In this document: positions 40,568-53,203 of the stretch, piece by piece
Position numbering within the stretch: position 1 is the stretch's first letter
Layout of the letters: each line of letters starts with the position of its first letter
Source of the DNA: Agarivorans sp. Toyoura001
GTDB lineage: Bacteria > Pseudomonadota > Gammaproteobacteria > Enterobacterales > Celerinatantimonadaceae
Assembly: GCF_005405585.1 (NCBI RefSeq)
Contig: NZ_BJEQ01000003.1
Coordinates: forward strand, 62,001 to 126,000
Reading direction: 5' to 3'
DNA length: 64,000 nt
Translations under genes and position numbers: made by a program
Notes under the pieces: generated by a model
Databases searched by the model: none
What the model was told of the DNA's origin: nothing
The model's input: the letters and a program-made list of their open reading frames with translations, nothing else

Positions 40568-41527
40568 CTACTGTTGCTGCTGTTTCTTCAATTGCTGCAT
40601 AAAATGAGACTGCGCTTTTGTCGAACCAGCTCGCTCTGCCTCCTCGACTAGGTTTAAGGCCCTAGTAAGGTCATCCTGTGCTACTGCTTTACTAATTTGA
40701 TCTAGATAAAAAGTCTCTGTATCACTTAGCATATCTGCGCTTGGCGCTTTAGTAGCAGCTACCGTGGTGGTAGTGGCTACTGCAGTAGCGGCCGCTGCAT
40801 CTGCTTTAACTGGAGCAGCTTCAACGGGCGTTAAATTTTGATTGGGTTCAGCCGAAGTAACAAACGACGAACTGAATAACACTTCGCTAAAACGAATATC
40901 TAGGTTACCTATCGGAGAATGTTTTGAATAATATTTAAAGGCCGAAGGTAAACCACCACCGGTTTTTTCTTCGTAAACAACTTTAGGATCAATCAGTTCG
41001 GTTTTACCGCCATATTCATTGGCTTTACTGTAAACCAATAAGTAACGTGCTTGTTTGGCTTGCTCAGGTGTGATGGCCTGCTGCATAGATAAAAAGCCTT
41101 CCGGGTCTAATGTAGTACTTTCAATTCGAAGCACCTCATTCAAACCTTGATCATAAAAAATCGCGGTAGGTACAAATACGGTACGCGCTACAAGACTATC
41201 TAAATGAAAGGTAAATTGAGAGATATCATCAGGGATCAGTAAGGCTGCGGTATAAGAGTTACCTTCAGGAAATTGAACTACTGGTGACTTTTCAGTGACA
41301 TCGATACGATTAGTTCTGTCTAAAGACAATAACTGATATTGCAGCTGTGAGGGTAGCTTTGGAGAAACACTTGAAGATTGTAAGTTGGCTGCTATTTTTG
41401 CCTCATCGGCAAATTGAGCCCCCCAAGTTCTAAACGGGTCAGTGACTTCTAAAGGCTTGTCATTGCTAGAACTTGAACACGCGCTAGCTAAAACACAAGC
41501 AACTACTACCGTTAATACTTTTTTCAA
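40568..41527 (-). CDS. malM: MalM-like periplasmic lipoprotein
   Basis: A 319-residue protein with a lipoprotein signal (MKKVLTVVVACVLASAC, lipid-modified Cys17). The middle domain has SYTAALLIPDDISQFTFHLDS and TEYG-type lines. An Ala/Val/Thr-rich linker (about residues 235-262) leads to a C-terminal helical repeat MLSDTETFYLDQISKAVAQD...ALNLVEEAERAGSTKAQSHF. That last block closely follows E. coli MalM, the periplasmic protein of the maltose regulon whose exact function is unknown. It follows lamB on the same strand after 89 bases. Here it sits beside beta-glucoside enzymes, not amylases, so its sugar may differ. Confidence 0.86.
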   Translation of the reverse strand: MKKVLTVVVACVLASACSSSSNDKPLEVTDPFRTWGAQFADEAKIAANLQSSSVSPKLPSQLQYQLLSLDRTNRIDVTEKSPVVQFPEGNSYTAALLIPDDISQFTFHLDSLVARTVFVPTAIFYDQGLNEVLRIESTTLDPEGFLSMQQAITPEQAKQARYLLVYSKANEYGGKTELIDPKVVYEEKTGGGLPSAFKYYSKHSPIGNLDIRFSEVLFSSSFVTSAEPNQNLTPVEAAPVKADAAAATAVATTTTVAATKAPSADMLSDTETFYLDQISKAVAQDDLTRALNLVEEAERAGSTKAQSHFMQQLKKQQQQ

Positions 41528-41616
41528 ATTTCCACCTCTTAAATGCGGGCGCTAACACCTTAGCGCCCACTCCTTGGTTTGAGTACCTATTTAAACAGTA
41601 CTCAGCTTAGCTGGGT

Positions 41617-42834
41617 TTACCACCAAGCTTCAACCATGGCACCCACTTTTGTTACGTCAACCGTCTCTTTTCCATCAGTTTTCACTTCACCTGTTACAGC
41701 GTAGAAGCGAACAACTGGGCGTGACCACATGAAGTGACCCACTTGGAAGTTTTGCGACAAGGTGATTTTCCATGCGTCACTTTTGTTTGCAGAGCCGCCA
41801 ACATCTGTGCGCTCGGTAAAGTGAACACCCGCTTCTAGAGCAGTAGCCATGTACTCAGTCCAGTGATGCTGAGGACGAACAGCAACGGCGTATTCAACTT
41901 TTTCGTCGAATGAGCAACCAGTTTGCTTACAATCGACTAACAAGTAGTTAGCGTTGTATTCCATGGCTGTCATTTCGCCAAAGTTAACTGCACCGTCTAA
42001 GAAAGCACCGTAAGAAGCGGCTTTTTTATCTTCATAGTTTGACCAGTTTTGGCCCGCTGAGTTAGCAGAAATCAATGCGGCAGCGTCAGTTTCGTAACGA
42101 GCAGCAACTTGGAACCAACCATTGCTTAAACCTTGACGGTAAGAAGCAAATACCTGCCATGCATCATTGTTTTCAATGCGGTCAGGGTTAGCTGCATCAT
42201 CTATATCCCCAGTAGTAAACGCGTAGTTACCACGGAATTTAAGAGCACCTTGCTCACTCACTTTAATATCATGCAAATTAAAGGCTAAAGAGTTAACTGA
42301 ACCCTTTTTATTTTCAGGAGTTGTACCACCACCACCTTGTGTCCAACCTAAATCAAGTTGAGCAAAACCAAGGTTTAAGTTATCAACACCGGCACCAGAA
42401 CCATCGGCACTAAGCATGAAGTAATCGCTCAAGCCACCTTGTTCACGACCGTAGAAACGTTTACCAGCCCAAACATAAGCATCTGGTTGTGAAGCAAAAA
42501 TACCTTTACCACCACCGTAGAACTGAGCTAAACCGATGGTATCGCCCCAAGTAGGCGAGTAACCAGGAGTGTTAAGCATAACGTTCATGTCAAATTTAGC
42601 ATCGCCATTCTCAAAACCTTGAGAAAGCATAAACTCCATCCAGTTGTCTTCGTTACCAAGACGACCTGCACCATTAATTTCACCGTGTTCGCCTTTTAGC
42701 TGAACAATTTCGTCGCCCGATGCTTCTAAAGCATAGCGGCCGTAACCAGAAAAATTAGGGGTACCCGCGAACGAGCTAAGAGAGGTTGCCGCTGACGCGA
42801 CTGCAATTGCAATTGTAAGCGCTTTCACTTTCAT
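41617..42834 (-). CDS. lamB: LamB-type maltoporin, oligosaccharide-specific outer-membrane porin
   Basis: A 405-residue 18-stranded barrel forming a trimeric sugar channel. It has a signal peptide (MKVKALTIAIAVASAATSLSSFA), then GTPNFSGYGRYALEASG as in LamB. RLGNEDNWMEFMLSQGF, VWAGKRFYGREQGGLSDYFM and GAGVDNLNLGFAQLDLGW are LamB signature strands, and it ends in VGAMVEAWW. The ATG at 42834 is chosen (GGAG 9 bases upstream) over a TTG three codons earlier. A LacI-type operator lies 122 bases upstream. Because its neighbours are GH116, GH94 and GH1 enzymes, it probably passes beta-gluco-oligosaccharides, not maltodextrins. Confidence 0.9.
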   Translation of the reverse strand: MKVKALTIAIAVASAATSLSSFAGTPNFSGYGRYALEASGDEIVQLKGEHGEINGAGRLGNEDNWMEFMLSQGFENGDAKFDMNVMLNTPGYSPTWGDTIGLAQFYGGGKGIFASQPDAYVWAGKRFYGREQGGLSDYFMLSADGSGAGVDNLNLGFAQLDLGWTQGGGGTTPENKKGSVNSLAFNLHDIKVSEQGALKFRGNYAFTTGDIDDAANPDRIENNDAWQVFASYRQGLSNGWFQVAARYETDAAALISANSAGQNWSNYEDKKAASYGAFLDGAVNFGEMTAMEYNANYLLVDCKQTGCSFDEKVEYAVAVRPQHHWTEYMATALEAGVHFTERTDVGGSANKSDAWKITLSQNFQVGHFMWSRPVVRFYAVTGEVKTDGKETVDVTKVGAMVEAWW

Positions 42835-42955
42835 TTTGTTCAACTCCGTGTGAATCTTGAAATTTTATTGGAAGCATTTTTTATATATGGCGAACTAGCC
42901 ATGGTTAAGAAGTATAAGACTCAAAATTAGATAAATAAGTGACCAACATCACTAA

Positions 42956-42969
42956 TGAAAGCGCTTGCA
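42956..42969. promoter_or_regulatory. LacI-family operator upstream of lamB
   Basis: TGAAAGCGCTTGCA fits the general LacI/GalR pattern TGNAANCGNTTNCA at every fixed position. It shares the core TGAAAGCGCTT with the sites at 43672 and 53157, pointing to the lacI gene at 52077. Confidence 0.78.
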
Positions 42970-43172
42970 AAAAACAAGGATCACAATTTAAACAAAATTA
43001 GAACCTATAGTTTCATGAAATATAGTGAAATAACCCCATGCAACATGAAAGCAGTTTCACGGATAAACCATTGTTATTTATGAGTTATTCATCTAGAGAA
43101 ATAAGGTGCTGTATACTTATGAAACAAATGATGTTTTTTCGCATATTCACTTTTGTTACAAAAACTAAACTA

Positions 43173-43188
43173 TGTGAGATGAATCAAA
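43173..43188. promoter_or_regulatory. Candidate CRP site
   Basis: TGTGAGATGAATCAAA matches the CRP pattern TGTGA-N6-TCACA in nine of ten fixed bases. Placement in the middle of a catabolic regulatory region is sensible, but it is far from both starts. Confidence 0.45.
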
Positions 43189-43671
43189 TAATTGTTTTCA
43201 TCTGATGTTTTTTACACTTATTAGTGCATCAATAAGTCTCAATACCTATTATTAATTAGTTAAAATGAAGCTTTGAGTTGATAAGGAAAAACAAATAAAG
43301 CATTAAAATTCATGAAAATACTGAAGCAAATGTTAGCGGCGGTACCTTTAATTTAGCCCCAAGCCTTATTTTCTCATCGAACAAGTCAACACGCGATGCA
43401 ATAAAATAACCAGCTAATGTTTTTTAGCATTCTCACAGGCCTCGCAATACGGCAATGGAATTCTTTCATACATCAACTGATTGTACCTAGCCTCCAGATA
43501 GCCTATCAATAAAGGCCTTGAGCCTTTCTATAGAACAACCAAACTACACTTATTGACTAAATTGCCTTGGCTTCTTTCATAGCTTTCCTATTACGAAATC
43601 TTTTATTGAGGCCGATCACTTTTTCGAATTGATGCACTAAACAAGCTAAGGCTACCTGTTAACATGCCATG

Positions 43672-43685
43672 TGAAAGCGCTTACA
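43672..43685. promoter_or_regulatory. LacI-family operator upstream of GH116
   Basis: TGAAAGCGCTTACA fits TGNAANCGNTTNCA fully; outer bases extend the symmetry (TGTGAAAG...ACACA). It ends 30 bases before the GH116 ATG, a position suited to blocking transcription. Confidence 0.82.
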
Positions 43686-43715
43686 CATCAATAGTATTTA
43701 GTTGAGGTCATCCCA

Positions 43716-46700
43716 ATGTTGCATCGTTACACCGCTCAATCCAGTTATTTTGGTCAGGTCAGTGACTTGATGAGTCCAGGATTGGCCGACGAGTTTGTAC
43801 AACCCTGGTATGTTCCATTAAGTACAACCCCAGCAGACACGGGGATCGCGGTAGGTGGTATTGGTAGTGCGTACACCCTAACACCAGCGGGAACAACGCC
43901 ACTGTTTCATATGTTACCGGGTTTGCATCTAGCCGACAGCCAGCGTGATGGTTTGCGATTAGAAGAGTTTTTCTTGAGCCAACGCGATGCAAATGAGCAG
44001 CAACTGGTGATAGTGAATCACAGCAACTTTCAGCAAAAGCAGAAGTTTTTCGCCTTAAGTAATCACCTACAACAGCCACTGTTTAAAGCTGATGATGATA
44101 CAGAGCAACAGCTTGCGCACCTGCAAAACCTTATTCAAGAGCCAGACCTCTACCAATGGAACCAAGCTAATTTACAGCGTTGGAATGTAGAGTTATCAGA
44201 CAAAACTCAGCAACTGTTAAGCAACCAAGTGACTGGCGCAGCGCTTAACATTAGTTGGTTACTCGATTTCTATGACGGCGCACTTGGCCTTAAAGCAGCC
44301 CACCAACAAGCACTCTATGGCGATTGGGAAGCAAATGCCTACCACGGCATAGCCACTTGCCCGAGCAAGCAAGTCAATTATCAAGCGCTGTATCCAGTCG
44401 CCAAGCAACAATTCGTTGACCAGCAAGCGATCCAAGTAACAAAGTTTCACTATAGCCCGGTGGTTCCTAATCACGAGGATTGGGCAGCCTTACCGGTGAG
44501 TTACACTCGTATCGTATTGCGTAACCAAAGCCAAACTAGACAAGCATTTAGCTTAATTCGCTGTATAGAAAACTTAAGCGGCTTTCAAGCGATTAAACAG
44601 CGCCCGGGCGTTCAAGACTCTGCCTGTAAATTGGTTCGTGCGGCTAACGGCCAAACAAGCCAACTGCATCGCTGGCAAAATGACGCTGAACACTGCGCCG
44701 TAGAAATGAGCGGTAACGCTAATCCAGGCATAGACTTTGACGGCCAAAGTTGTTTATCCGTTTCCGCGCCAACTGGTTGTTGGGTAAGCGCTAAGCCGTA
44801 TTTTTACACAGATAATACCGCCAATGTAGTGGCCGGAGGCTTAGCCAGCGGACGCTTAGGAGAATCATTTGACCGCGGTATTTACAGCGGCCGCGAACTC
44901 AGTTCAGCAGCGCTTTGCATTAGCGGCGAGCTTGCCCCTGGCGAGCAAGTCGAAGTATGTTTCTCACTAGTGCTAGATTTCCCCCATATTCGTTTACCGG
45001 GTCTAACTAGCCTTAAAAAGTACACCCAACAATTTCCACAAAGCGAAGGCAGAGCATTAGCTATTTGCCAGCATGCTATAGAGATAGAACCTCAGTTAAC
45101 GGCATCATTAGCTAATGTCAGCGAACAATTAATGCCTGACGATAGCCTAGCTAGCTTACCGCTTGGGCCGCAGGGACAAACCGAAACACGGACTCTGGCT
45201 CTAAACACCCTATCGTTTCTAGCTGAAGCTACCGTTTGGGATGCCGATGATAAATTTTTAGTAAGAGAATGTGCCGATTACCCATTCTTCAATTCCTTGG
45301 ATGTGTATTTTTATGGCTCGTTTTCATTACTACAGTGTTTTCCGCGCTTAGATGGCGCGGTAATGCGTCACTTCTCGCAAGCCGTGTTAGCAGAGAACTC
45401 GCATATTCGTCGCCACCATGAATACGTAGGCTTACCTCACGCCGATTTACCGAACGATAAAACCGAAGGTCCACGAGCGGTGCGAGGAGCAGTGATTCAC
45501 GATTTAGGCAGCCCTTTTGACGCTAAACCAGATGCTTACGACTGGCATAATGTTAAGGAGTGGAAGGATTTAGCGCCTAAATACATCTTAATGTTGCTAC
45601 GTCATTATCGTTTTCATGATGACAAAATCCTATTAAGCGATTGCTGGGAAGCGTGCCAAGCGGCCATGCATTACTTGCAAGCCATGGTAGAACCAGGCCA
45701 GTGCTTCCCACTGACTCGCGGCACCGACGATACCTTTGATAACCTGTCTTCACACGGTATTTCGGTATATTGCGGGTCACTGTGGATCGCCAGCTTAGAA
45801 GCCTACGCCACCATTGCAGAACTACTAAACAGAACCGGGATCCCGCAGGAGTACCGCTACTTAGCGTCATGCGCACGTAAGCAGTTTCACAGTAGCTTAT
45901 GGGACGAGCAGGCAGGCTACTTTCACTTCTATGTGACACCGCTGCAAATACGCGATATTAAAGAACAACAGCTCGAGGCCTTAAGTGATGCCTTAAAGCA
46001 GTCTCCTTTTGCTGGGCAACTTAAACTACAGAGCAAACCCTGTTCAGTGGAATTAGTGGAACGGCTTAACCAATGGTTAAACGAGCCAAGCCTGCCAGAG
46101 TTAGGCGATTTAGCCGATAATGTGCAGCAGTTATGGGCCGAGCACTGCGCGCCACTTAGCTGGCCTACTACTCAAGGTAACCCCAAAACGCTTCGCCAAA
46201 TACGAAAACTAGCACTCCTCGCGCTAGGCGACTTTTGGCAAAGCTCTTGGCACGCCAAGTTACAACTAGATAGCGATGATAGCTTTGCCGACCAATTGTT
46301 AGCCGACAGTTACTGTCGCATGCTGCAGTTACCCGCCATTGCTAGTGAGCAACAACAACGCCGCAGTTTGGCCTATGTTTATCGCCACAACTACCAAATA
46401 AATAGCGCACGAGTAGGCGCAGCCAACTTAGTCACACGCTTAGGTGAGCCTAAAGAGTGGGATAATTTCCAAGCTCACGACGTGTGGATTGGCGTGCAAT
46501 ACTCCTTAGTCACGGCGATGGCAGCCTTGGATATGCAGCAGCAGGCCGCTGATTTACTCAACGCCACTTATCGCAATCTATATCAAGATGCACGCATTCC
46601 GTTTGCCGCTCCAGAAGGGTTTAATGCTAGCTGCCGCTTTAACAGTAAGCAGTTCTCCCACTTGAAAGACGGCGAAACCGAGCAGCTTCATCAGGCGCTA

Positions 46701-46943
46701 ATAGACTTAGGTTTACTCTATTCAGATGGGCGTATTGCTGCAGATATTCCACGTCAGTTTAATGAGTTCAAACTGCGCAGTGCCGCCCTATGCCAAAAAT
46801 TTCAGTTAAACAGCCAAACGCTGTTCTACGCCTTACACCATACCGGACTTAAGTACACCGCAGGTCGCTACTTCCGCCCCGGCATGATCTTTTCTTTAGC
46901 TTTGGTTAAGCCTTTGACCAACGCCGAACAGCATTCAGCTTAA
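43716..46943 (+). CDS. Glycoside hydrolase family 116 (DUF608) beta-glucosidase-like enzyme
   Basis: A 1075-residue protein of the GBA2/GH116 type. The N-terminal domain has GIAVGGIGSAYTLTPAGTTPLF. The catalytic (alpha/alpha)6 barrel from about residue 480 shows ECADYPFFNSLDVYFYGSF, IHDLGSPFDAKPDAYDWHNV, EWKDLAPKYILMLLRHY, DDTFDNLSSHGISVYCGSLW and HDVWIGVQYSLVTAM. By alignment with the family from memory, Glu518 is the likely nucleophile and Asp675 (in TFD) the acid/base. It has no signal peptide, so it is cytoplasmic. GH116 members act as beta-glucosidases, glucosylceramidases or beta-xylosidases. GAGG precedes the ATG. The GH94 gene follows after 16 bases. Confidence 0.85.
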   Translation: MLHRYTAQSSYFGQVSDLMSPGLADEFVQPWYVPLSTTPADTGIAVGGIGSAYTLTPAGTTPLFHMLPGLHLADSQRDGLRLEEFFLSQRDANEQQLVIVNHSNFQQKQKFFALSNHLQQPLFKADDDTEQQLAHLQNLIQEPDLYQWNQANLQRWNVELSDKTQQLLSNQVTGAALNISWLLDFYDGALGLKAAHQQALYGDWEANAYHGIATCPSKQVNYQALYPVAKQQFVDQQAIQVTKFHYSPVVPNHEDWAALPVSYTRIVLRNQSQTRQAFSLIRCIENLSGFQAIKQRPGVQDSACKLVRAANGQTSQLHRWQNDAEHCAVEMSGNANPGIDFDGQSCLSVSAPTGCWVSAKPYFYTDNTANVVAGGLASGRLGESFDRGIYSGRELSSAALCISGELAPGEQVEVCFSLVLDFPHIRLPGLTSLKKYTQQFPQSEGRALAICQHAIEIEPQLTASLANVSEQLMPDDSLASLPLGPQGQTETRTLALNTLSFLAEATVWDADDKFLVRECADYPFFNSLDVYFYGSFSLLQCFPRLDGAVMRHFSQAVLAENSHIRRHHEYVGLPHADLPNDKTEGPRAVRGAVIHDLGSPFDAKPDAYDWHNVKEWKDLAPKYILMLLRHYRFHDDKILLSDCWEACQAAMHYLQAMVEPGQCFPLTRGTDDTFDNLSSHGISVYCGSLWIASLEAYATIAELLNRTGIPQEYRYLASCARKQFHSSLWDEQAGYFHFYVTPLQIRDIKEQQLEALSDALKQSPFAGQLKLQSKPCSVELVERLNQWLNEPSLPELGDLADNVQQLWAEHCAPLSWPTTQGNPKTLRQIRKLALLALGDFWQSSWHAKLQLDSDDSFADQLLADSYCRMLQLPAIASEQQQRRSLAYVYRHNYQINSARVGAANLVTRLGEPKEWDNFQAHDVWIGVQYSLVTAMAALDMQQQAADLLNATYRNLYQDARIPFAAPEGFNASCRFNSKQFSHLKDGETEQLHQALIDLGLLYSDGRIAADIPRQFNEFKLRSAALCQKFQLNSQTLFYALHHTGLKYTAGRYFRPGMIFSLALVKPLTNAEQHSA

Positions 46944-46959
46944 CAATTCTGAGGTAAAT

Positions 46960-49374
46960 ATGAGCAAGCAATACGGTTATTTCGATGACCAAAACAAGGA
47001 ATACGTACTAACTACGCCGAAAACGCCGATAAAATGGGCGAACTACGTGGGAACTCTCGACTTTGGCGGTTTAGTAGATACCACTGGCGGCACCGTTGTG
47101 TGTAAACAAGATCCCGCCTTAAACCGTATTACTAAATACATTGCACAGTTGCCACAGTCTGAGTTTAAAGGCTCAACGGTGTATATTCGCCGCAAAACTG
47201 CGCAAGGTTACCAACTGTTTTCTCCGTTCTTTACGCCAACGTTAGAAGCCTTAGATAAGTTTGAATGTCGCATTGGTTTGTCTTACACCCGCTGGGTAGT
47301 TGAAGCTCAAGGTTTGCGTATCGACCTTAAGATTTTTGTTCCTCAAGGTTCTAGCACCTTAATTCAAGATATTCAGGTCACTAACATTAGTGAGCAAACC
47401 CAAGCTGTAGATGTAGTACCGGTTTACGAGTTCACCCACTTTGATGCTTTAAAACAGCTAGTAAATGCCGATTGGGTACCGCAAACCATGGCGCTAAAAG
47501 CGCACCCAGAAAGCACTGGCCACGTAGTTTTAGAGCAATATGCTTTCATGAAGCGTGATAGCGCAGTGAACTACTTAAGCTGTAACCGACCGGTTGATTC
47601 TTGGGAAGGTGACCGCCGTGCATTTTTAGGTGATAACGAATTTGGCTCTTGGTCAAAACCCTTATCACTAATGGAGCCTAGCTTAGGCAACTCTGAATGT
47701 GATCGCGGTGATAACGTAGGCGCGCTATTGGTGAACTTGGGCGAACTTGCGCCGGGAAACACTGAGCGGGTCATTACTCAGTTAGGCCAAGTAAGCAGTT
47801 TGGCTGACGCCAAACCAAGCATCGATTTATATCGCCAAGAAAGCGCTGTAGACCAAGCCTTTGTTGAGCTATCTGGATTTTGGGAAGACTACCTACAAGT
47901 GATGCAGGTAGACACCCCAGATACAGCCATGAACTCAATGCTCAACGTACATAATCCTCGCCAATGCCACACCACTAAAAACTGGTCTCGTTACCTGTCT
48001 TTATACCAGTTGGGCTACGGCGCTCGCGGTATTGGCTTTAGGGACTCATCACAAGATTTAATTGGTGTGATGTCGCACATGCCGCAAGAAGCACGCGAAT
48101 TTGCCGAGCGTTTATTATCGGTTCAACTCGCCAATGGCTCGGCCATGCACCAGTACTTCCCGCTCACTATGGAAGCCAACGAAGGTGACTCACGCGAAGA
48201 GCCAGAATGCCCTAACTACTACGGCGACGACCATTTATGGATCGTACTTACGGTTGCCCAGTACTTAAAAGAAACTGGCGATCTGGATTTCTTAAACAAG
48301 CCTATTTCTTATTACAGCAAAACCCTAGAACCTGAAGATCGCCCGCAAGCCAGCGTTTATCAACACTTGCTTAAAGCCGTTGATTTTACGTGGAATAATG
48401 TAGGTGAACATGGCCTACCGCTACTCGGTTTTGCCGATTGGAACGATACCGTTAACTTACCAACAGGCGCTGAGTCTCTGTTTGTTGCTAACTTATTTGG
48501 TAAAGCGCTAAAAGAGCTGTTAGACATTGCTAAAACCTTGGATGACCAGAGCAGCTACGATTTGCTCAATGGCTACTATCAAGAAATGAAACAACGCGTT
48601 AATCAGCATGCTTGGGACGGCGAATGGTGGGTACGTTACTTTACTAACGAAGGCCAACCGATTGGTTCGCATAAAAACCAACATGGTAGTTTATACACCA
48701 ACGGACAGTCGTGGCCGGTAATCTCTGGCTTTGCTGAAGGCGACCGCATGCTAGCTGGCCTTGAAGCTGTTAATCACAAGCTAAATACCAAGTACGGCAT
48801 TATGTTGTCTGGCCCTGGTTATAATGGTTTTGACCCACAACTGGGTGGCGTAAGTACTTACCCACCGGGTGCTAAAGAAAACGGGGGGATCTTCTTACAC
48901 TCAAACCCTTGGGTAATGATGGCCGAAACCATAGCCGGTAACGGCGACCGTGCCTTTGAGTACTACAACCAAATTAACCCTGCTTTCCACAACGATAACT
49001 TGGATGTATTCCAATCCGAACCTTATTGTTATCCGCAAAATATTCTAGGCGCGGAACACAAACAATTTGGTATGGGTCGCAACGCCTGGTTGTCGGGCAC
49101 CTCTGCCTGGACTTATGTAGCTGGTACCCAATACATCTTGGGTATTAAACCCACGCTAACGGGGCTAGAAGTAGACCCTTGTATTCCAACGGCATGGCCT
49201 GGCTTTAGCGTGAAACGCCGTTACCGTGGCGCGCAATACAACATTGAGGTTAGCAACCCTAACGGCGTGAGCTCGGGTGTGGTAAGTGTTACCGTAAATG
49301 GCGACGCAATAGATGGAAAAGTGCTACCTGTCTTTAGTGAAGGCGAGCATCACGTAGAAGTGGTACTAGGCTAA
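46960..49374 (+). CDS. GH94 disaccharide phosphorylase (cellobiose-phosphorylase-like)
   Basis: An 804-residue cytoplasmic enzyme splitting a beta-linked glucose disaccharide or oligosaccharide with inorganic phosphate, yielding alpha-glucose 1-phosphate. It starts MSKQYGYFDDQNKEYVLTTP as GH94 proteins do. Sugar-site block GFRDSSQDL is near 357-365, the catalytic acid Asp in FADWNDTVNLP near 492-494, phosphate-site His in GGIFLHSNPW near 646 and WLSGTSAW near 712. VDPCIPTAWPGFSVKRRYRGAQY forms the C-terminal domain. Cellobiose, laminaribiose, chitobiose and cellobionate phosphorylases share this frame. I cannot decide between them; the diverged N-terminal half argues against calling it plain cellobiose phosphorylase. 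Confidence 0.88.
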   Translation: MSKQYGYFDDQNKEYVLTTPKTPIKWANYVGTLDFGGLVDTTGGTVVCKQDPALNRITKYIAQLPQSEFKGSTVYIRRKTAQGYQLFSPFFTPTLEALDKFECRIGLSYTRWVVEAQGLRIDLKIFVPQGSSTLIQDIQVTNISEQTQAVDVVPVYEFTHFDALKQLVNADWVPQTMALKAHPESTGHVVLEQYAFMKRDSAVNYLSCNRPVDSWEGDRRAFLGDNEFGSWSKPLSLMEPSLGNSECDRGDNVGALLVNLGELAPGNTERVITQLGQVSSLADAKPSIDLYRQESAVDQAFVELSGFWEDYLQVMQVDTPDTAMNSMLNVHNPRQCHTTKNWSRYLSLYQLGYGARGIGFRDSSQDLIGVMSHMPQEAREFAERLLSVQLANGSAMHQYFPLTMEANEGDSREEPECPNYYGDDHLWIVLTVAQYLKETGDLDFLNKPISYYSKTLEPEDRPQASVYQHLLKAVDFTWNNVGEHGLPLLGFADWNDTVNLPTGAESLFVANLFGKALKELLDIAKTLDDQSSYDLLNGYYQEMKQRVNQHAWDGEWWVRYFTNEGQPIGSHKNQHGSLYTNGQSWPVISGFAEGDRMLAGLEAVNHKLNTKYGIMLSGPGYNGFDPQLGGVSTYPPGAKENGGIFLHSNPWVMMAETIAGNGDRAFEYYNQINPAFHNDNLDVFQSEPYCYPQNILGAEHKQFGMGRNAWLSGTSAWTYVAGTQYILGIKPTLTGLEVDPCIPTAWPGFSVKRRYRGAQYNIEVSNPNGVSSGVVSVTVNGDAIDGKVLPVFSEGEHHVEVVLG

Positions 49375-49390
49375 ACCGAGTACAGCAATA

Positions 49391-49418
49391 AAAAAGCCAG
49401 CGCTATGCTGGCTTTTTT
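49391..49418. terminator. Bidirectional terminator between GH94 and ABC ATPase genes
   Basis: A stem of 11 bp (49391-49401 with 49407-49417) whose A-run and T-run flank the GC core on both sides. It terminates both convergent transcripts. Confidence 0.9.
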
Positions 49419-49438
49419 GTATTTAAAATAACGACTTA

Positions 49439-50536
49439 CTATGGCTGAGCTAAAGACTTTTGCGTCTCTGCATCAAACAAGTGCACGAAGGTGGCATCTA
49501 AAAATATCTCTAGAGACTTAGGCAATTTACCATGCTCCGCTGGAGCTTCAATCACAATATTCTGCCCGCCCATTTCTGCTTTCACGTGCATAGTCGCACC
49601 TAATAATTCACTATCAGAGAAGGTAGCTTTGGCCGCTATAACGTGGCTAGCTTCTAGCTGTTTCTCATGTAAATGAATATCGTTAGGGCGAATGCCTAGC
49701 GTTAGTGCTTGACCTTCTTGTAGCTTACCTACGAATTTCTCCGGGGCTTTAATCACCTGGCCAGCTAATTCCAACAGCCACTCGCCGTCTTGCTGTTTAG
49801 CAGTCACTGGGATCATATTCATAGACGGCGAACCGATAAAGCTCGCTACAAATTGATTTTTAGGCTGAGTAAACACCTCATAAGGCGTACCAATTTGTGC
49901 GGTAACCCCTTTATTCATGATCACGATACGATCTGCTAAGGTCATCGCCTCTACCTGGTCATGCGTAACATATAAGGTAGTTACACCCAATTTATGGTGC
50001 ATGTCTTTTATTTCTGCACGCATTTTGCCGCGAAGCTTAGCGTCGAGGTTAGATAAAGGCTCATCAAACAAAAATAGCTTAGGCGTGCGCACCATAGCCC
50101 GCCCCATGGCGACCCGCTGGCGTTGCCCACCAGAAAGTTGTTTAGGTTTACGATGAAGATAGTCAGTTAACTGCAGCATTTCGGCTGCCCAATCCACTGA
50201 CTTTTTAATCTCTTTTTTCTTAACCCCTTGAACTTTAAGCGCAAAGGCAATGTTTTCGTATACTGTCATGTGGGGGTAAAGCGCATAGCTTTGAAATACC
50301 ATGGCAAGATCGCGATCTTTTGGGTCAACGTCGTTGAGGCATTTTTCATCCATACAGATTTGACCCGAAGAAATGGTTTCTAAGCCGGCCACCATCCTCA
50401 AAATGGTGGATTTACCACACCCAGAGGCTCCGAGTAGTACCACAAATTCACCATCACTCATCTCTAAGTCGAAACCTTTTACAATTTCAACTTTGCCGTA
50501 ACTCTTACGTAGATCTTTAAATGACAGTGACGCCAT
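49439..50536 (-). CDS. ABC sugar importer ATPase, UgpC/MsmK/MalK-like
   Basis: A 365-residue ATP-binding subunit of a carbohydrate importer of the CUT1 class. Walker A GASGCGKST is at 36-44, signature LSGGQ at 134-138 and Walker B LFLFDEP at 154-160, with D-loop SNLDAKLR and switch HDQ in YVTHDQVEAMTLADRI. The C-terminal OB-type regulatory domain (from about 240, GSPSMNMIPV, LGIRPNDIHL) is as in MalK/UgpC. It lies 2 bases after the GH1 stop. No binding protein or permease gene is in the window, so it must serve importers encoded elsewhere, like the shared MsmK ATPase of Gram-positives. Confidence 0.92.
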   Translation of the reverse strand: MASLSFKDLRKSYGKVEIVKGFDLEMSDGEFVVLLGASGCGKSTILRMVAGLETISSGQICMDEKCLNDVDPKDRDLAMVFQSYALYPHMTVYENIAFALKVQGVKKKEIKKSVDWAAEMLQLTDYLHRKPKQLSGGQRQRVAMGRAMVRTPKLFLFDEPLSNLDAKLRGKMRAEIKDMHHKLGVTTLYVTHDQVEAMTLADRIVIMNKGVTAQIGTPYEVFTQPKNQFVASFIGSPSMNMIPVTAKQQDGEWLLELAGQVIKAPEKFVGKLQEGQALTLGIRPNDIHLHEKQLEASHVIAAKATFSDSELLGATMHVKAEMGGQNIVIEAPAEHGKLPKSLEIFLDATFVHLFDAETQKSLAQP

Positions 50537-50538
50537 AA

Positions 50539-51882
50539 TTATGCTCCTGCGCGTTGTTGTAAAAATTGTTGGAAGTATTTAGCACTTTGCTTAAGCACTC
50601 GTTGCTGGCTTGCGTAATCAACATAAACAATGCCAAAACGTTTCTCATAACCGAAGGCCCACTCAAAGTTATCCATTAAACTCCAAGCAAAATAGCCACG
50701 CATATCCACGCCCTGCTCCATTGCCACAGCCACCGCGTCTAGGTGTGATTGGTAGTAGTCACAACGTTGTTGATCGATCACTTCGCCATTTTCCAGGCTG
50801 TCTGCGCCGGCCATGCCGTTTTCGGTAATGAAGATCGGCGGCAAGGTATAGCGCTGATTAAGTTTTACCAATAAAGCGGTGAGTGCTTCAGGGCACACTT
50901 CCCAACCCATATCTGTACGCTCTACATCTGGCAGCACCACTTGGCACGGGCCATTTTCAGTGGCTTTAATCACGTGGCGGGTATAGTAGTTAATGCCTAA
51001 GAAGTCGATGGGTTGGTTAATTAAGGCCAGATCGCCAGGTAAAATAGTCGGCCACCATAATGGTTGCTGCTGGCGAATCGCTGCTGGGTATTCCCCTTCA
51101 ACAATGGGCTGTAAGAACCAATGAATGCCCTGTTGCTCATCAAAATCGGCAGCTAATACATCAGCCGCATTGGTTGGGTCTGCTGGGTAAGCAGGGGTAA
51201 AGTTAAGTACAATACCGTGCTCTGCTTTAGGGGCGTTTTCACGCATTTTTGGCAATGCTAAACCGTGAGCTAGCAATATATGGTGAGCAGCTTGAAAACC
51301 TAGCTTATCCTCTGTTAAACCGGGGGCGTGCTGACCAAAGCGGTAACCTAAAAAGGCACTACATAGTGGTTCGTTAAAGGTAGCATAACTAAATACTGAA
51401 TCACCTAAAGCTTTTGTCATGATGTCGGCAAATTCAGCGAATTTATAGGCTGTTTCGCGACTTAACCAACCACCTCGGTCTTCTAGATACTGAGGTAAAT
51501 CCCAATGATAAAGGGTAACAAATGGCTTAATGCCTAATTCATTAAGCTTGGCAATTAAGCGTTTATAAAACTCAATTCCTTTACTGTTTACTTGCCCTTC
51601 TACTGGCATAATACGCGGCCAAGCAATCGATAAACGATAAGCATCAACGCCTAACTCGGCGATCATCTCTAGGTCTTGTTCCCAAAGATGGTAGTGATCA
51701 CATGCTACTGTGCCGTCGTCGCCATTAGCCACTTTTCCGGGAGTGGCACAAAAGCGGTCCCAAATAGACTCACAACGTTCATCTTCTTTATTTGCGCCTT
51801 CAATTTGAAACGCAGCGGTAGCCACACCAAATACAAAGTCACTACGACGAAAAGGAGAAGACTCGGGAAATTCAAAAGACAT
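50539..51882 (-). CDS. GH1 family beta-glucosidase
   Basis: A 447-residue cytoplasmic (alpha/beta)8 retaining glycosidase releasing glucose from beta-glucosides. The N-terminal FVFGVATAAFQIEGA, acid/base Glu171 in TFNEP and nucleophile Glu354 in ITENG are all present, as is the sugar-site WSLMDNFEWAFGY near the end. The size is typical of bacterial BglA/BglB (about 450). GAGG precedes the ATG. There is no residue pattern for 6-phospho-glucosides that I can pick out, fitting ABC uptake and not PTS uptake. Same strand as lacI upstream and the ATPase downstream. Confidence 0.95.
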   Translation of the reverse strand: MSFEFPESSPFRRSDFVFGVATAAFQIEGANKEDERCESIWDRFCATPGKVANGDDGTVACDHYHLWEQDLEMIAELGVDAYRLSIAWPRIMPVEGQVNSKGIEFYKRLIAKLNELGIKPFVTLYHWDLPQYLEDRGGWLSRETAYKFAEFADIMTKALGDSVFSYATFNEPLCSAFLGYRFGQHAPGLTEDKLGFQAAHHILLAHGLALPKMRENAPKAEHGIVLNFTPAYPADPTNAADVLAADFDEQQGIHWFLQPIVEGEYPAAIRQQQPLWWPTILPGDLALINQPIDFLGINYYTRHVIKATENGPCQVVLPDVERTDMGWEVCPEALTALLVKLNQRYTLPPIFITENGMAGADSLENGEVIDQQRCDYYQSHLDAVAVAMEQGVDMRGYFAWSLMDNFEWAFGYEKRFGIVYVDYASQQRVLKQSAKYFQQFLQQRAGA

Positions 51883-52076
51883 AACACAACCTCAACACTA
51901 CGCCTTTACTGACGCATATCATTATATTCATGGGATAAAAAAGAGACTGCCAGCAGATTTACTGCTGATCGACCTTAGCTATACATTCACAAAAACGCAT
52001 AGCTAACATCAAGCAAGGAGTCGATTAAGAGTAACTGGGACAGGTCATATTCAACTCCTTAAATTGGGTAGGTAAG

Positions 52077-53078
52077 CTAACCGACGGGAGGTGCCGACGA
52101 TTCTCGCACTATAAGTTGTGGTTCTAACTGCACACCTTTTACTAGGTCTACATTTGATAAATTCTGTAACACCATATTTGCTGCGATGGTGCCCATTTCT
52201 TCAATTGGAAAACGAATAGTGGTCATCTTCGGTCGCAAATAGCGCGAATAAAACATGTCATCGTAGCCCACCACCGAAATTCGCTCCGCTGGTGATTCAT
52301 TGTCTAGCGACAAAATGTCGTATACGCCAATAGCAATGTTATCGTTACCGCACACCACTCCGGTGAACTCAACATCACGCTGGAATAACTTAGCCGCCGC
52401 TTTGTTGCCGCCATCTTCTTGGTACAAACCTTCTACGACTAACTGTGCGTCGTATTCTATGCCTGCTTCATTAAGGGCATTACGGTAACCTTGTAAACGC
52501 TCTCGCGCATCAAGGTGAACTAATGGACCCGTGATCGAAGCGATTTTTGTATGACCTAAATCGATAAGATGTTTGGTCGCCAAATATCCGCCTAATTCAT
52601 TGTTCAAATAAATACAGCGATTGGCTAACTCCGGCACATAGCGGTTTAATACAAAAATATTAGGATTACGCTGACACATTTCGATCAGCTCATCGTCACC
52701 CATGGCCTGTACCACTAGCAAAATAGCGTCGACACGACGAGAATTTAAAAAGCGAATCGCATCTCGCTCTTGTTCTAAATCATCGTGGCCACTGGTAGCG
52801 ATAAGGTGCTGGCCTTCGTTTCGCAATACCGATTCAATACTGTGCATCATGGGACCATAGAACGGGCCAGATAAGGTACCCACTACAATCCCCACGCTAT
52901 AAGAGCGGTTGGTAGCCAGAGCTTGAGCAAATGAATTAGGTTGATAACCCAATTTATCCATCGCAGCCATAACACGCTCTCGGTTAATTTCCGATACCTT
53001 GTTATTGCCGTTCATCACTCTAGATACGGTTGCTTGCGATACACCCGCTAGATCAGAGACTTCCTTGATCGTTGCCAT
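52077..53078 (-). CDS. LacI-family repressor of the beta-glucoside locus
   Basis: A 333-residue regulator. The N-terminal HTH and hinge read MATIKEVSDLAGVSQATVSR and VSEINRERVMAAMDKLGYQPN. The periplasmic-binding-like core (from about 60, SYSVGIVVGTLSGPFYGPMM, VVCGNDNIAIGVYDIL, ISVVGYDDMFYSRYLRP) binds the inducer sugar. It is preceded by two operators of its own type and a good sigma70 promoter, so it represses itself. Near-identical operators before lamB and GH116 indicate it controls the whole locus. The GH1-ATPase pair follows after 194 bases and may be read from the same promoter. Confidence 0.93.
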   Translation of the reverse strand: MATIKEVSDLAGVSQATVSRVMNGNNKVSEINRERVMAAMDKLGYQPNSFAQALATNRSYSVGIVVGTLSGPFYGPMMHSIESVLRNEGQHLIATSGHDDLEQERDAIRFLNSRRVDAILLVVQAMGDDELIEMCQRNPNIFVLNRYVPELANRCIYLNNELGGYLATKHLIDLGHTKIASITGPLVHLDARERLQGYRNALNEAGIEYDAQLVVEGLYQEDGGNKAAAKLFQRDVEFTGVVCGNDNIAIGVYDILSLDNESPAERISVVGYDDMFYSRYLRPKMTTIRFPIEEMGTIAANMVLQNLSNVDLVKGVQLEPQLIVRESSAPPVG

Positions 53079-53101
53079 TATTACTTTAGCCTCGCTGTAT
53101 T

Positions 53102-53115
53102 AGTAAGCGCTGACA
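53102..53115. promoter_or_regulatory. Second, weaker LacI-type operator before lacI
   Basis: AGTAAGCGCTGACA keeps the AAGCGCT core and fits TGNAANCGNTTNCA in most positions. It lies 24 bases before the lacI start and about 42 bases from the main operator. Confidence 0.55.
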
Positions 53116-53156
53116 CTATAGTTTCTCTGGGCACAGTCAGAGTTAACCTATTCCCG

Positions 53157-53170
53157 TGAAAGCGCTTTCT
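53157..53170. promoter_or_regulatory. LacI-family operator overlapping the lacI transcription start
   Basis: TGAAAGCGCTTTCT shares the TGAAAGCGCTT core with the sites at 42956 and 43672. It begins 5 bases downstream of the -10 box of the minus-strand promoter, so a bound repressor would cover the start point. Confidence 0.82.
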
Positions 53171-53174
53171 CTTA

Positions 53175-53203
53175 ATATGACTGATTGCAGTTATTTATGT
53201 CAA
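53175..53203 (-). promoter_or_regulatory. Sigma70 promoter of lacI
   Basis: Minus strand: perfect -35 TTGACA (53198-53203), 17-base spacer, -10 TCATAT (53175-53180). The predicted start near 53168 falls in the operator. Confidence 0.75.

Follow-up and report, generated by a model that had tools for sequence, protein, structure and literature searches.

A probable LacI-controlled regulon for beta-linked gluco-oligosaccharides in Agarivorans, with operator links to xylan genes

Analysis of a 64,000-nucleotide stretch of the genome of Agarivorans sp. Toyoura001 (contig NZ_BJEQ01000003.1, positions 62,001 to 126,000; hereafter the window) revealed a seven-gene locus in which a LamB-family porin and a MalM-like protein are combined with GH116, GH94 and GH1 enzymes, a sugar ATP-binding cassette (ABC) ATPase and a LacI-family repressor. 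The genes probably form a regulon for the breakdown of short beta-linked gluco-oligosaccharides, cello-oligosaccharides being the likeliest, with one operator tying it to xylan use. We put forward more tentatively that one LacI protein coordinates the use of cellulose and xylan fragments, and that its operator has become fixed where several divergent LamB porins encode their signal peptides. The result is a checkable map of how some gammaproteobacteria, here in a host that we guess to be marine, may import cellulose and xylan fragments through LamB-type porins.

Open reading frame (ORF) and Pfam/NCBIfam scans confirm the places and families that the initial annotation gave for the seven genes (Table 1). 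That annotation had lamB-malM facing GH116-GH94; the two units instead diverge from a common intergenic region of about 0.9 kb, while the minus-strand lacI-GH1-ATPase unit converges on GH94 as described. GH116 and GH94 are separated by 16 bp. Synteny of the locus is kept in all seven genus genomes examined (G000, the window's own genome, to G006; G007 is Alginatibacterium, and G008-G011 belong to the same family). The likelier lamB start appears to be the ATG at 42834, with GGAG 9 bases upstream, abutting the upstream TTG at 42843; we prefer it to that TTG. The window gave no Rfam match at curated thresholds.

Operator sites around the locus and within lamB

The operator core recognized at first extends to the palindrome TGNAAGCGCTTNCA. 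Its 11-mer TGAAAGCGCTT occurs in exact form at 42817-42827(-), 42956-42966(+), 43672-43682(+) and 53157-53167(+) of the window, and with one mismatch allowed it gives 9 window matches against 2.72 expected, a number reached in 0 of 100 shuffles. Sites with this core were indeed found before lamB, GH116 and lacI, as claimed, the lacI 14-mer carrying one mismatch, but the list was incomplete: a site inside lamB, a degenerate third site upstream of it and a second, weaker lacI site have to be added (Table 1). Genome-wide, exact TGNAAGCGCTTNCA is present 7 times in the own genome and 6, 6, 6, 5, 5, 4 and 3 times in seven relatives (42 over 8 genomes), for an expectation from base composition of about 0.26 per genome. 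The reversed pattern gives 0 matches in all eight, a lenient control because it contains two CpG. Seven further genomes hold 0, 4, 1 and 5 (G008-G011) and 1, 2 and 2 (Vibrio-type) exact copies.

The arrangement of the sites is also conserved. The three lamB sites keep a spacing of 142-143 bp (first to second) and 90 bp (second to third) in all seven genus genomes, and the counterparts of the weaker lacI site lie 56-57 bp from the first one, with none within two mismatches in G006. Against a background of 242 invariant columns out of 903 in the intergenic region, the GH116 site is the only 14-nucleotide window there with all columns invariant, and an exact copy of it is found upstream of GH116 in Alginatibacterium, where GH116 has one exact and one near site. 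Outside the genus, G009 and G011, which represent a further genus of the family, have a LacI relative of 58-59% identity with an exact site 67 bp upstream. The Vibrio-type lacI genes have upstream sites in two of three genomes (one exact and one near in L186, one near in L187), with none within one mismatch at lacI of L188.

Taken together, a lacI gene with palindromic, CG-centred sites before itself and before catabolic operons, kept among relatives, has the make-up of a LacI regulon, and CG-centred even palindromes are the norm for LacI sites in the accessible part of a large survey (PMC4052901). The earlier proposal of one repressor for all three transcripts is supported by these predicted sites, which form one LacI-type family at all three throughout the genus. 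The LacI protein itself reaches no NCBIfam equivalog cut-off (GalR, 286.6 bits for a cut-off of 557). A promoter-like TTGACA-18-CATATT lies at 53203-53174(-) with the lacI operator just downstream; it is only suggestive because the promoter scan gave fewer matches overall than shuffled sequences (6 versus 19.3).

Within lamB, the copy of TGAAAGCGCTTACA spells x-K-A-L-T in the first part of the presumed signal peptide. It is found in the same register in 18 of the 20 LamB genes whose starts were examined: the window lamB and its six orthologues, two genes on contig C2 of the own genome (L009), two in G001 (L130), one in G004 (L139) and three each in G009 and G011. These site-bearing LamB groups are 33-51% identical to each other, and the three G009 copies 77-82%. 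Both Vibrio-type LamB starts examined (L186, L187) lack the internal site; the LamB matches of L071 and L087 stand outside the 20-gene count. At the lamB start, six identical codons in a row form the longest such run in the gene (gene-wide, 65 of 236 invariant residues have identical codons), a run that says little on its own, the leader immediately preceding it being conserved too. If the site is a true operator, a repressor bound just past the start codon would form a transcription roadblock, looping to the sites 142 and 232 bp upstream; the porin leader peptide would be partly dictated by the operator, and duplication of the porin gene would automatically carry the control site along. The site is a candidate for the rare case of an operator kept inside coding sequence and travelling with porin duplicates.

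Table 1. Genes and operator-like sites of the locus (window positions).
Feature	Positions	Strand	Remarks
malM-like gene	40568..41527	-	319 aa, TTG start; Pfam MalM 55.3 bits, cut-off 26
lamB-family porin gene	41617..42834	-	Pfam LamB 197.9 bits
operator-like 14-mer TGAAAGCGCTTACA inside lamB codons	42814..42827	-	14/14 columns invariant in seven genomes
operator TGAAAGCGCTTGCA upstream of lamB	42956..42969	+	11/14 columns invariant in seven genomes
degenerate third lamB site TGAAAGCAGTTTCA	43046..43059	+	9/14 columns invariant in seven genomes
operator TGAAAGCGCTTACA 30 bp before GH116 start codon	43672..43685	+	14/14 columns invariant in seven genomes
GH116 beta-glucosidase-type gene	43716..46943	+	1075 aa; Pfam GH116 catalytic 228.9 bits
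GH94 phosphorylase gene, cellobiose-phosphorylase type	46960..49374	+	804 aa; Pfam 425.6 bits
UgpC/MsiK-type sugar ABC ATPase gene	49439..50536	-	365 aa; no adjoining permeases
GH1 beta-glucosidase gene, non-phospho type	50539..51882	-	447 aa
LacI-family repressor gene	52077..53078	-	333 aa; Pfam LacI 70.5 bits
second, weaker lacI site AGTAAGCGCTGACA	53102..53115	+	counterpart in 5 of the other 6 genus genomes
lacI operator TGAAAGCGCTTTCT	53157..53170	+	one-mismatch site in 7/7 genus genomes

Enzymes, uptake and the proposed route

The family scores bear out the beta-glucoside enzyme set. GH1 reaches 604.4 bits with the NCBIfam BGL model TIGR03356 (cut-off 478.5), and the 6-phospho models stay below their cut-offs. 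For GH94, the best solved match is the cellobiose phosphorylase 3qde with 521.9 bits, compared to 441.9 for chitobiose phosphorylase, 225.1 for cyclic beta-1,2-glucan synthase, 168 for 4zle ('putative b-glycan phosphorylase'), 80 for cellodextrin phosphorylase and 75 for laminaribiose phosphorylase; by similarity, these scores appear to place it nearest to the cellobiose phosphorylases among GH94 activities. Across the eight genomes searched, the remaining GH94 matches are only 23-35% identical. A second, distant GH94 of the own genome (26%; G000:C1:614237-617509) adjoins another LacI gene.

The GH116 protein was aligned with 19 relatives chosen from those fetched, the numbering of TxGH116 being mapped by an inferred constant offset of 15. 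The counterparts of TxGH116 E441, D452, H507, T591, D593 and E777 are conserved in all 20 proteins, including the nucleophile and acid/base (E518 and D675, for E441 and D593) and E967 (for E777). According to the accessible part of its description, TxGH116 acts on beta-1,3- and beta-1,4-linked gluco-oligosaccharides, with E777 binding the 6-OH (PMC10167657). A role of GH116 as a xylosidase was considered as well, and is made less likely by the conservation of this residue. As side observations, the G003 GH116 gene (G003:C1:252317-255535, L096) has one in-frame TAG, and GH1, GH94 or GH116 matches come in two pieces in records of Vibrio maritimus and V. variabilis (L071, L081, L087).

By sequence, the three enzymes fit cello-type beta-gluco-oligosaccharides. 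The sugar had been left open at first; it is less so given the 522 versus 75 bits of GH94 for cellobiose and laminaribiose phosphorylase and the sister LacI beside GH149 discussed below. Four GH9 matches in the own genome could be suppliers of cello-oligosaccharides, and none of its five GH16 matches is at an exact 14-mer site.

The porin was described as a maltose-type part, perhaps repurposed for a beta-linked sugar. It belongs to the LamB family and scores 185.6 bits with the NCBIfam maltoporin subfamily, below the cut-off of 394. Chain positions 6, 41, 74 and 118, counted by hand, align with Y, W, W and F; these positions have a role in the sugar slide. MalM is likewise below its NCBIfam equivalog cut-off (121.7 bits for 295), and the ATPase falls short of the MalK equivalog (394.9 for 568) while exceeding the UgpC subfamily cut-off (479.2 for 432). 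A maltodextrin regulon was considered and rejected, since none of the seven genes encodes an amylase (one further window ORF gave no match in a family scan) and LamB, MalM and the ATPase remain under the maltose cut-offs. Elsewhere in the genome, an alpha-amylase/CBM26 gene (1109 aa; L010, G000:C2:297881) has the 11-mer core about 230 bp upstream; it was left uncounted because the 14-mer there exceeds one mismatch.

The ATPase was called an orphan, and no permeases adjoin it in the window. The genome-wide site scan that had been suggested for finding its permeases yields, among exact sites, the importer linked to GH52 on contig C7 only. The C7 ATPase is 57% identical to that of the window. The C7 binding protein matches 5ixp best, whose sugar is unnamed, and gives 99 bits with a putative binder of cellobiose compared to 32 bits with one of xylo-oligosaccharides; it might carry both cello- and xylo-type sugars. 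Permeases lacking an ATPase were sought, among ABC transporters, in 12 further permease regions of the own genome, and none was seen; these regions and C7 together account for 24 of its 53 permease-domain matches. As all 12 regions carry their own ATPase, sharing of the window ATPase is not required.

The Vibrio-type operon (L186-L188, and L081 of Vibrio variabilis) contains LacI, a binding protein, two permeases, GH1, ATPase and GH94, beside an epimerase and GH116. Its binding protein gives 138.6 bits with the putative cellobiose-binding 8bfy, second to 5ixp. No close copy of this protein was found in four genus genomes (G000, G001, G003, G006; E up to 1e-10): the queries gave one match of 42-43% each in G000 (the C7 protein), G001 and G003, and matches of 43% and 26% in G006. 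The dedicated permeases of the Vibrio operon appear to have been lost in this genus. The corresponding slot in G009 and G011, beside dtd in L184, holds GH3, an operator, LacI (58-59%), an ATPase (67%) and three site-bearing LamBs, with no permease, which suggests that a LacI-ATPase-LamB core persists while the enzymes change. The GH3 set with its three tandem LamBs (G009:C2, G011:C5; L183, L184) resembles an exchangeable cassette around that core.

In the route that we propose, LacI would, when no sugar is present, occupy the 14-bp palindromes of the lacI promoter and the GH116-GH94 upstream region together with two or three sites around the lamB start, one of them within the signal-peptide codons, and so block transcription. 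Entry of a beta-oligosaccharide inducer, presumably cellobiose or a longer cello-oligosaccharide, would release it. LamB, presumably helped by MalM in the periplasm, would admit the oligosaccharides through the outer membrane, and they would pass the inner membrane intact, as no signal peptide is evident to the eye in GH1, GH94 or GH116. Inside, GH116 and GH1 would trim them to glucose, and GH94 would convert cellobiose and phosphate to glucose-1-phosphate and glucose. The leftover ATPase may help the co-regulated GH52-linked importer, or it may be a relic.

Alternative regulators and substrates

Several observations limit or weigh against this reading. The bare 11-mer is unspecific, 6 of its 15 exact genome matches lying in or beside unrelated genes (C9, C10 twice, C23, C24, C31), and the one-mismatch motif is barely above its control in the own genome (19 versus 15), which is why only exact and conserved near-sites were used. 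In line with that control, nine further one-mismatch loci, in which no permease is apparent to the eye (without a family scan), look like background. The reversed control has matches in G105 (3, versus 1 real) and G009 (1, versus 4). Other intergenic windows reach 13 of 14 invariant columns (e.g. 42844-42848, 43010, 43573-43576 and 43596), so that conservation by itself does not single out the sites. Both sites at the window's lacI are imperfect, the main one being of mixed type (TG..CT). For the LacI relative of Alginatibacterium (57%), a 19.9-kb stretch holds no site even with one mismatch allowed, and the sites of a sister LacI found in relatives are nearly the same. For GH116, the counterpart of TxGH116 R786, which like E777 contacts the 6-OH that sets glucose apart from xylose, is not alignable, as the solved-structure alignment stops before it, and the guessed one, R974, is R in 16 of the 20 proteins (S, S, A and P in L186, L187, L188 and L077). 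As for the site in lamB, four of the five exact 14-mer places in three Vibrio-type genomes are inside predicted coding sequence, and the accessible part of the large survey puts coding-sequence sites at less than 1% of LacI sites (PMC4052901). The published AglR consensus given there also contains AAAGCGCTTT, a sign that the motif core is generic for LacI proteins, and several repressors could therefore share the sites.

This generic core is one ground for an alternative that we consider unlikely, in which LacI controls the local transcripts only, while the distant sites and those within lamB codons arose by chance or serve other LacI or XylR proteins. Another is that the same 14-mer occurs in other Vibrio-type coding sequence where K-A-L-T or a like stretch is so encoded. 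Against it stand the first-codon site that recurs in LamB groups of only 33-51% identity and the three lamB sites that hold their spacing in seven genomes.

The distant sites suggest that the regulon is wider than first described: exact sites also mark GH52 with its ABC importer, two LamBs opposite a GH10 xylanase gene and a chemoreceptor gene (L127 by Pfam, L129 by protein start). In all five loci covered (G000, G001, G003, G004, G006; outside G000, GH52 was judged from protein starts, and some stretches end before the permeases), GH52 is preceded by an exact site and the linked ATPase by one with a single mismatch, and for G002 and G005 the main-locus sites were covered. In G000, the neighbours of GH52 on contig C7 are a XylR-type regulator, the ATPase, the binding protein and two permeases. 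A GH10-type gene with a one-mismatch site lies opposite the site-bearing LamBs of L009 (G000, two), L130 (G001, two) and L139 (G004, one), assigned by Pfam in L009 and by protein start in the other two. Beside GH52 are also two tandem sets of three small genes (L011, 321-4488), alike by their starts and lipoprotein- or secreted-like; a one-mismatch site precedes such a set in G001, G003 and G004 (L131, L137, L138).

These links could be read to mean that xylan or mixed beta-1,4-glycans are the main substrate, with LacI sensing a xylo- or mixed oligosaccharide and GH1, GH94 and GH116 being side activities or acting on xylosides. Besides the GH52 and GH10 sites, the Vibrio variabilis locus L081, in which GH116 is followed by an ATPase, a binding protein, permeases and GH10, points in this direction. 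However, that arrangement is seen in one of six Vibrio-type loci (not in L071, L087, L186, L187 or L188), GH116 keeps the E777 contact to a 6-OH that xylose lacks, and GH94 scores highest with cellobiose phosphorylases. We regard a xylan-centred system as quite unlikely. The XylR-type regulator of the GH52 locus is a further point against the regulon that we prefer.

Laminari-oligosaccharides (beta-1,3) as substrate and inducer are very unlikely: TxGH116 cleaves beta-1,3 as well as beta-1,4 linkages in the available part of its description (PMC10167657) and exact sites lie before GH149 in G006 and upstream of GH16 in G003, but GH94 is remote from laminaribiose phosphorylase, no GH149 match at E 1e-50 turns up in the window's genome, and GH149 has a sister LacI of its own in relatives, with shifted (G009, G011) or mixed (G001, G003) sites. 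GH149 occurs in eight of the ten genomes searched, with no match in Alginatibacterium either. The sister LacI, 49-52% identical to the window LacI, lies 0.4-0.55 kb from GH149 in G001, G003, G009 and G011, in a search that leaves out G002, G004 and G005. In G006, where the exact site is 16 bp before the called start of the GH149 beta-1,3-oligoglucan phosphorylase (1077 bits with 6hq6), the next-best LacI reaches 44% identity, and no other LacI match in the window's genome exceeds 42% (E up to 1e-30). The G003 site upstream of GH16, a gene near GH149 and the sister LacI, is of the full TG..CA type. The pairing of a sister LacI with GH149 suggests laminarin as the sister's sugar; for the window system, cello-oligosaccharides remain the likeliest, with cross-talk between the two possible. 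The sister sites (AGNAAGCGCTTNCT in G009 and G011; loci L218-L220, L136, L175-L178) differ from those of the window mainly at the outer base pair, a difference that makes the divergence of repressor specificity testable.

Relation to known systems

BglH of Escherichia coli, a LamB relative in a phosphotransferase system (PTS) setting, resembles the window LamB as an outer-membrane porin for beta-glucosides, but it belongs to a PTS/phospho-glucosidase system, whereas the window GH1 is of the non-phospho type. MsiK is the shared multi-sugar ABC ATPase of Streptomyces; like it, the window ATPase is encoded apart from permeases, but unlike MsiK it need not be shared, given the 12 of 12 other permease regions with their own ATPase.

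The statement that no system of this set is described proved too strong as to kind. In the available part of one study, a LacI-type Bgl regulon (BglR) is described in Shewanella and E. coli BglH is named as a beta-glucoside-specific outer-membrane porin (PMC2996990). As in the window, the Shewanella repressor is of LacI type, its predicted sites precede several beta-glucoside operons, a beta-glucosidase is predicted to be cytoplasmic and the regulon includes an outer-membrane transporter (PMC2996990). That regulon differs in its TonB-dependent Omp-Bgl and GPH permease BglT, and a phosphorylase is not mentioned in that part of the study (PMC2996990); the window instead has LamB/MalM, GH94, GH116, an ABC ATPase and links to xylan genes. 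No description of the LamB/MalM-GH116-GH94-GH1 set was found in the open-access papers searched, and we regard the locus as a variant of known LacI-controlled beta-glucoside regulons, with this exact gene set apparently new.

The seven-gene cellodextrin cluster of Ruminiclostridium cellulolyticum similarly brings together uptake and breakdown of cellulose fragments, with a cellobiose phosphorylase mentioned in the accessible part of its description (PMC5663094); this bacterium is Gram-positive, so it has no outer-membrane porin or MalM there. Homologous enzymes stand in one neighbourhood in the Vibrio operon of L186-L188 (identities of 64-66% for GH94, 55-57% for GH1, 58-60% for the ATPase and 47-48% for LacI), which differs in having its own binding protein, permeases and aldose epimerase, in the lack of a MalM match in the stretches compared and, unlike the window lamB, in the two LamB starts without an internal site. 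GH116 of this type is present in 11 of the 148 genomes searched, namely seven of the own genus (own included), one of a sister genus and three Vibrio-type. Among GH116 loci in named genomes, 67 of 72 have Fibrobacter-type titles, the others being Alginatibacterium, three Vibrio and one Myxococcales, in a search that reaches close relatives only. The presence of GH116 in a few gammaproteobacteria may reflect gene transfer.

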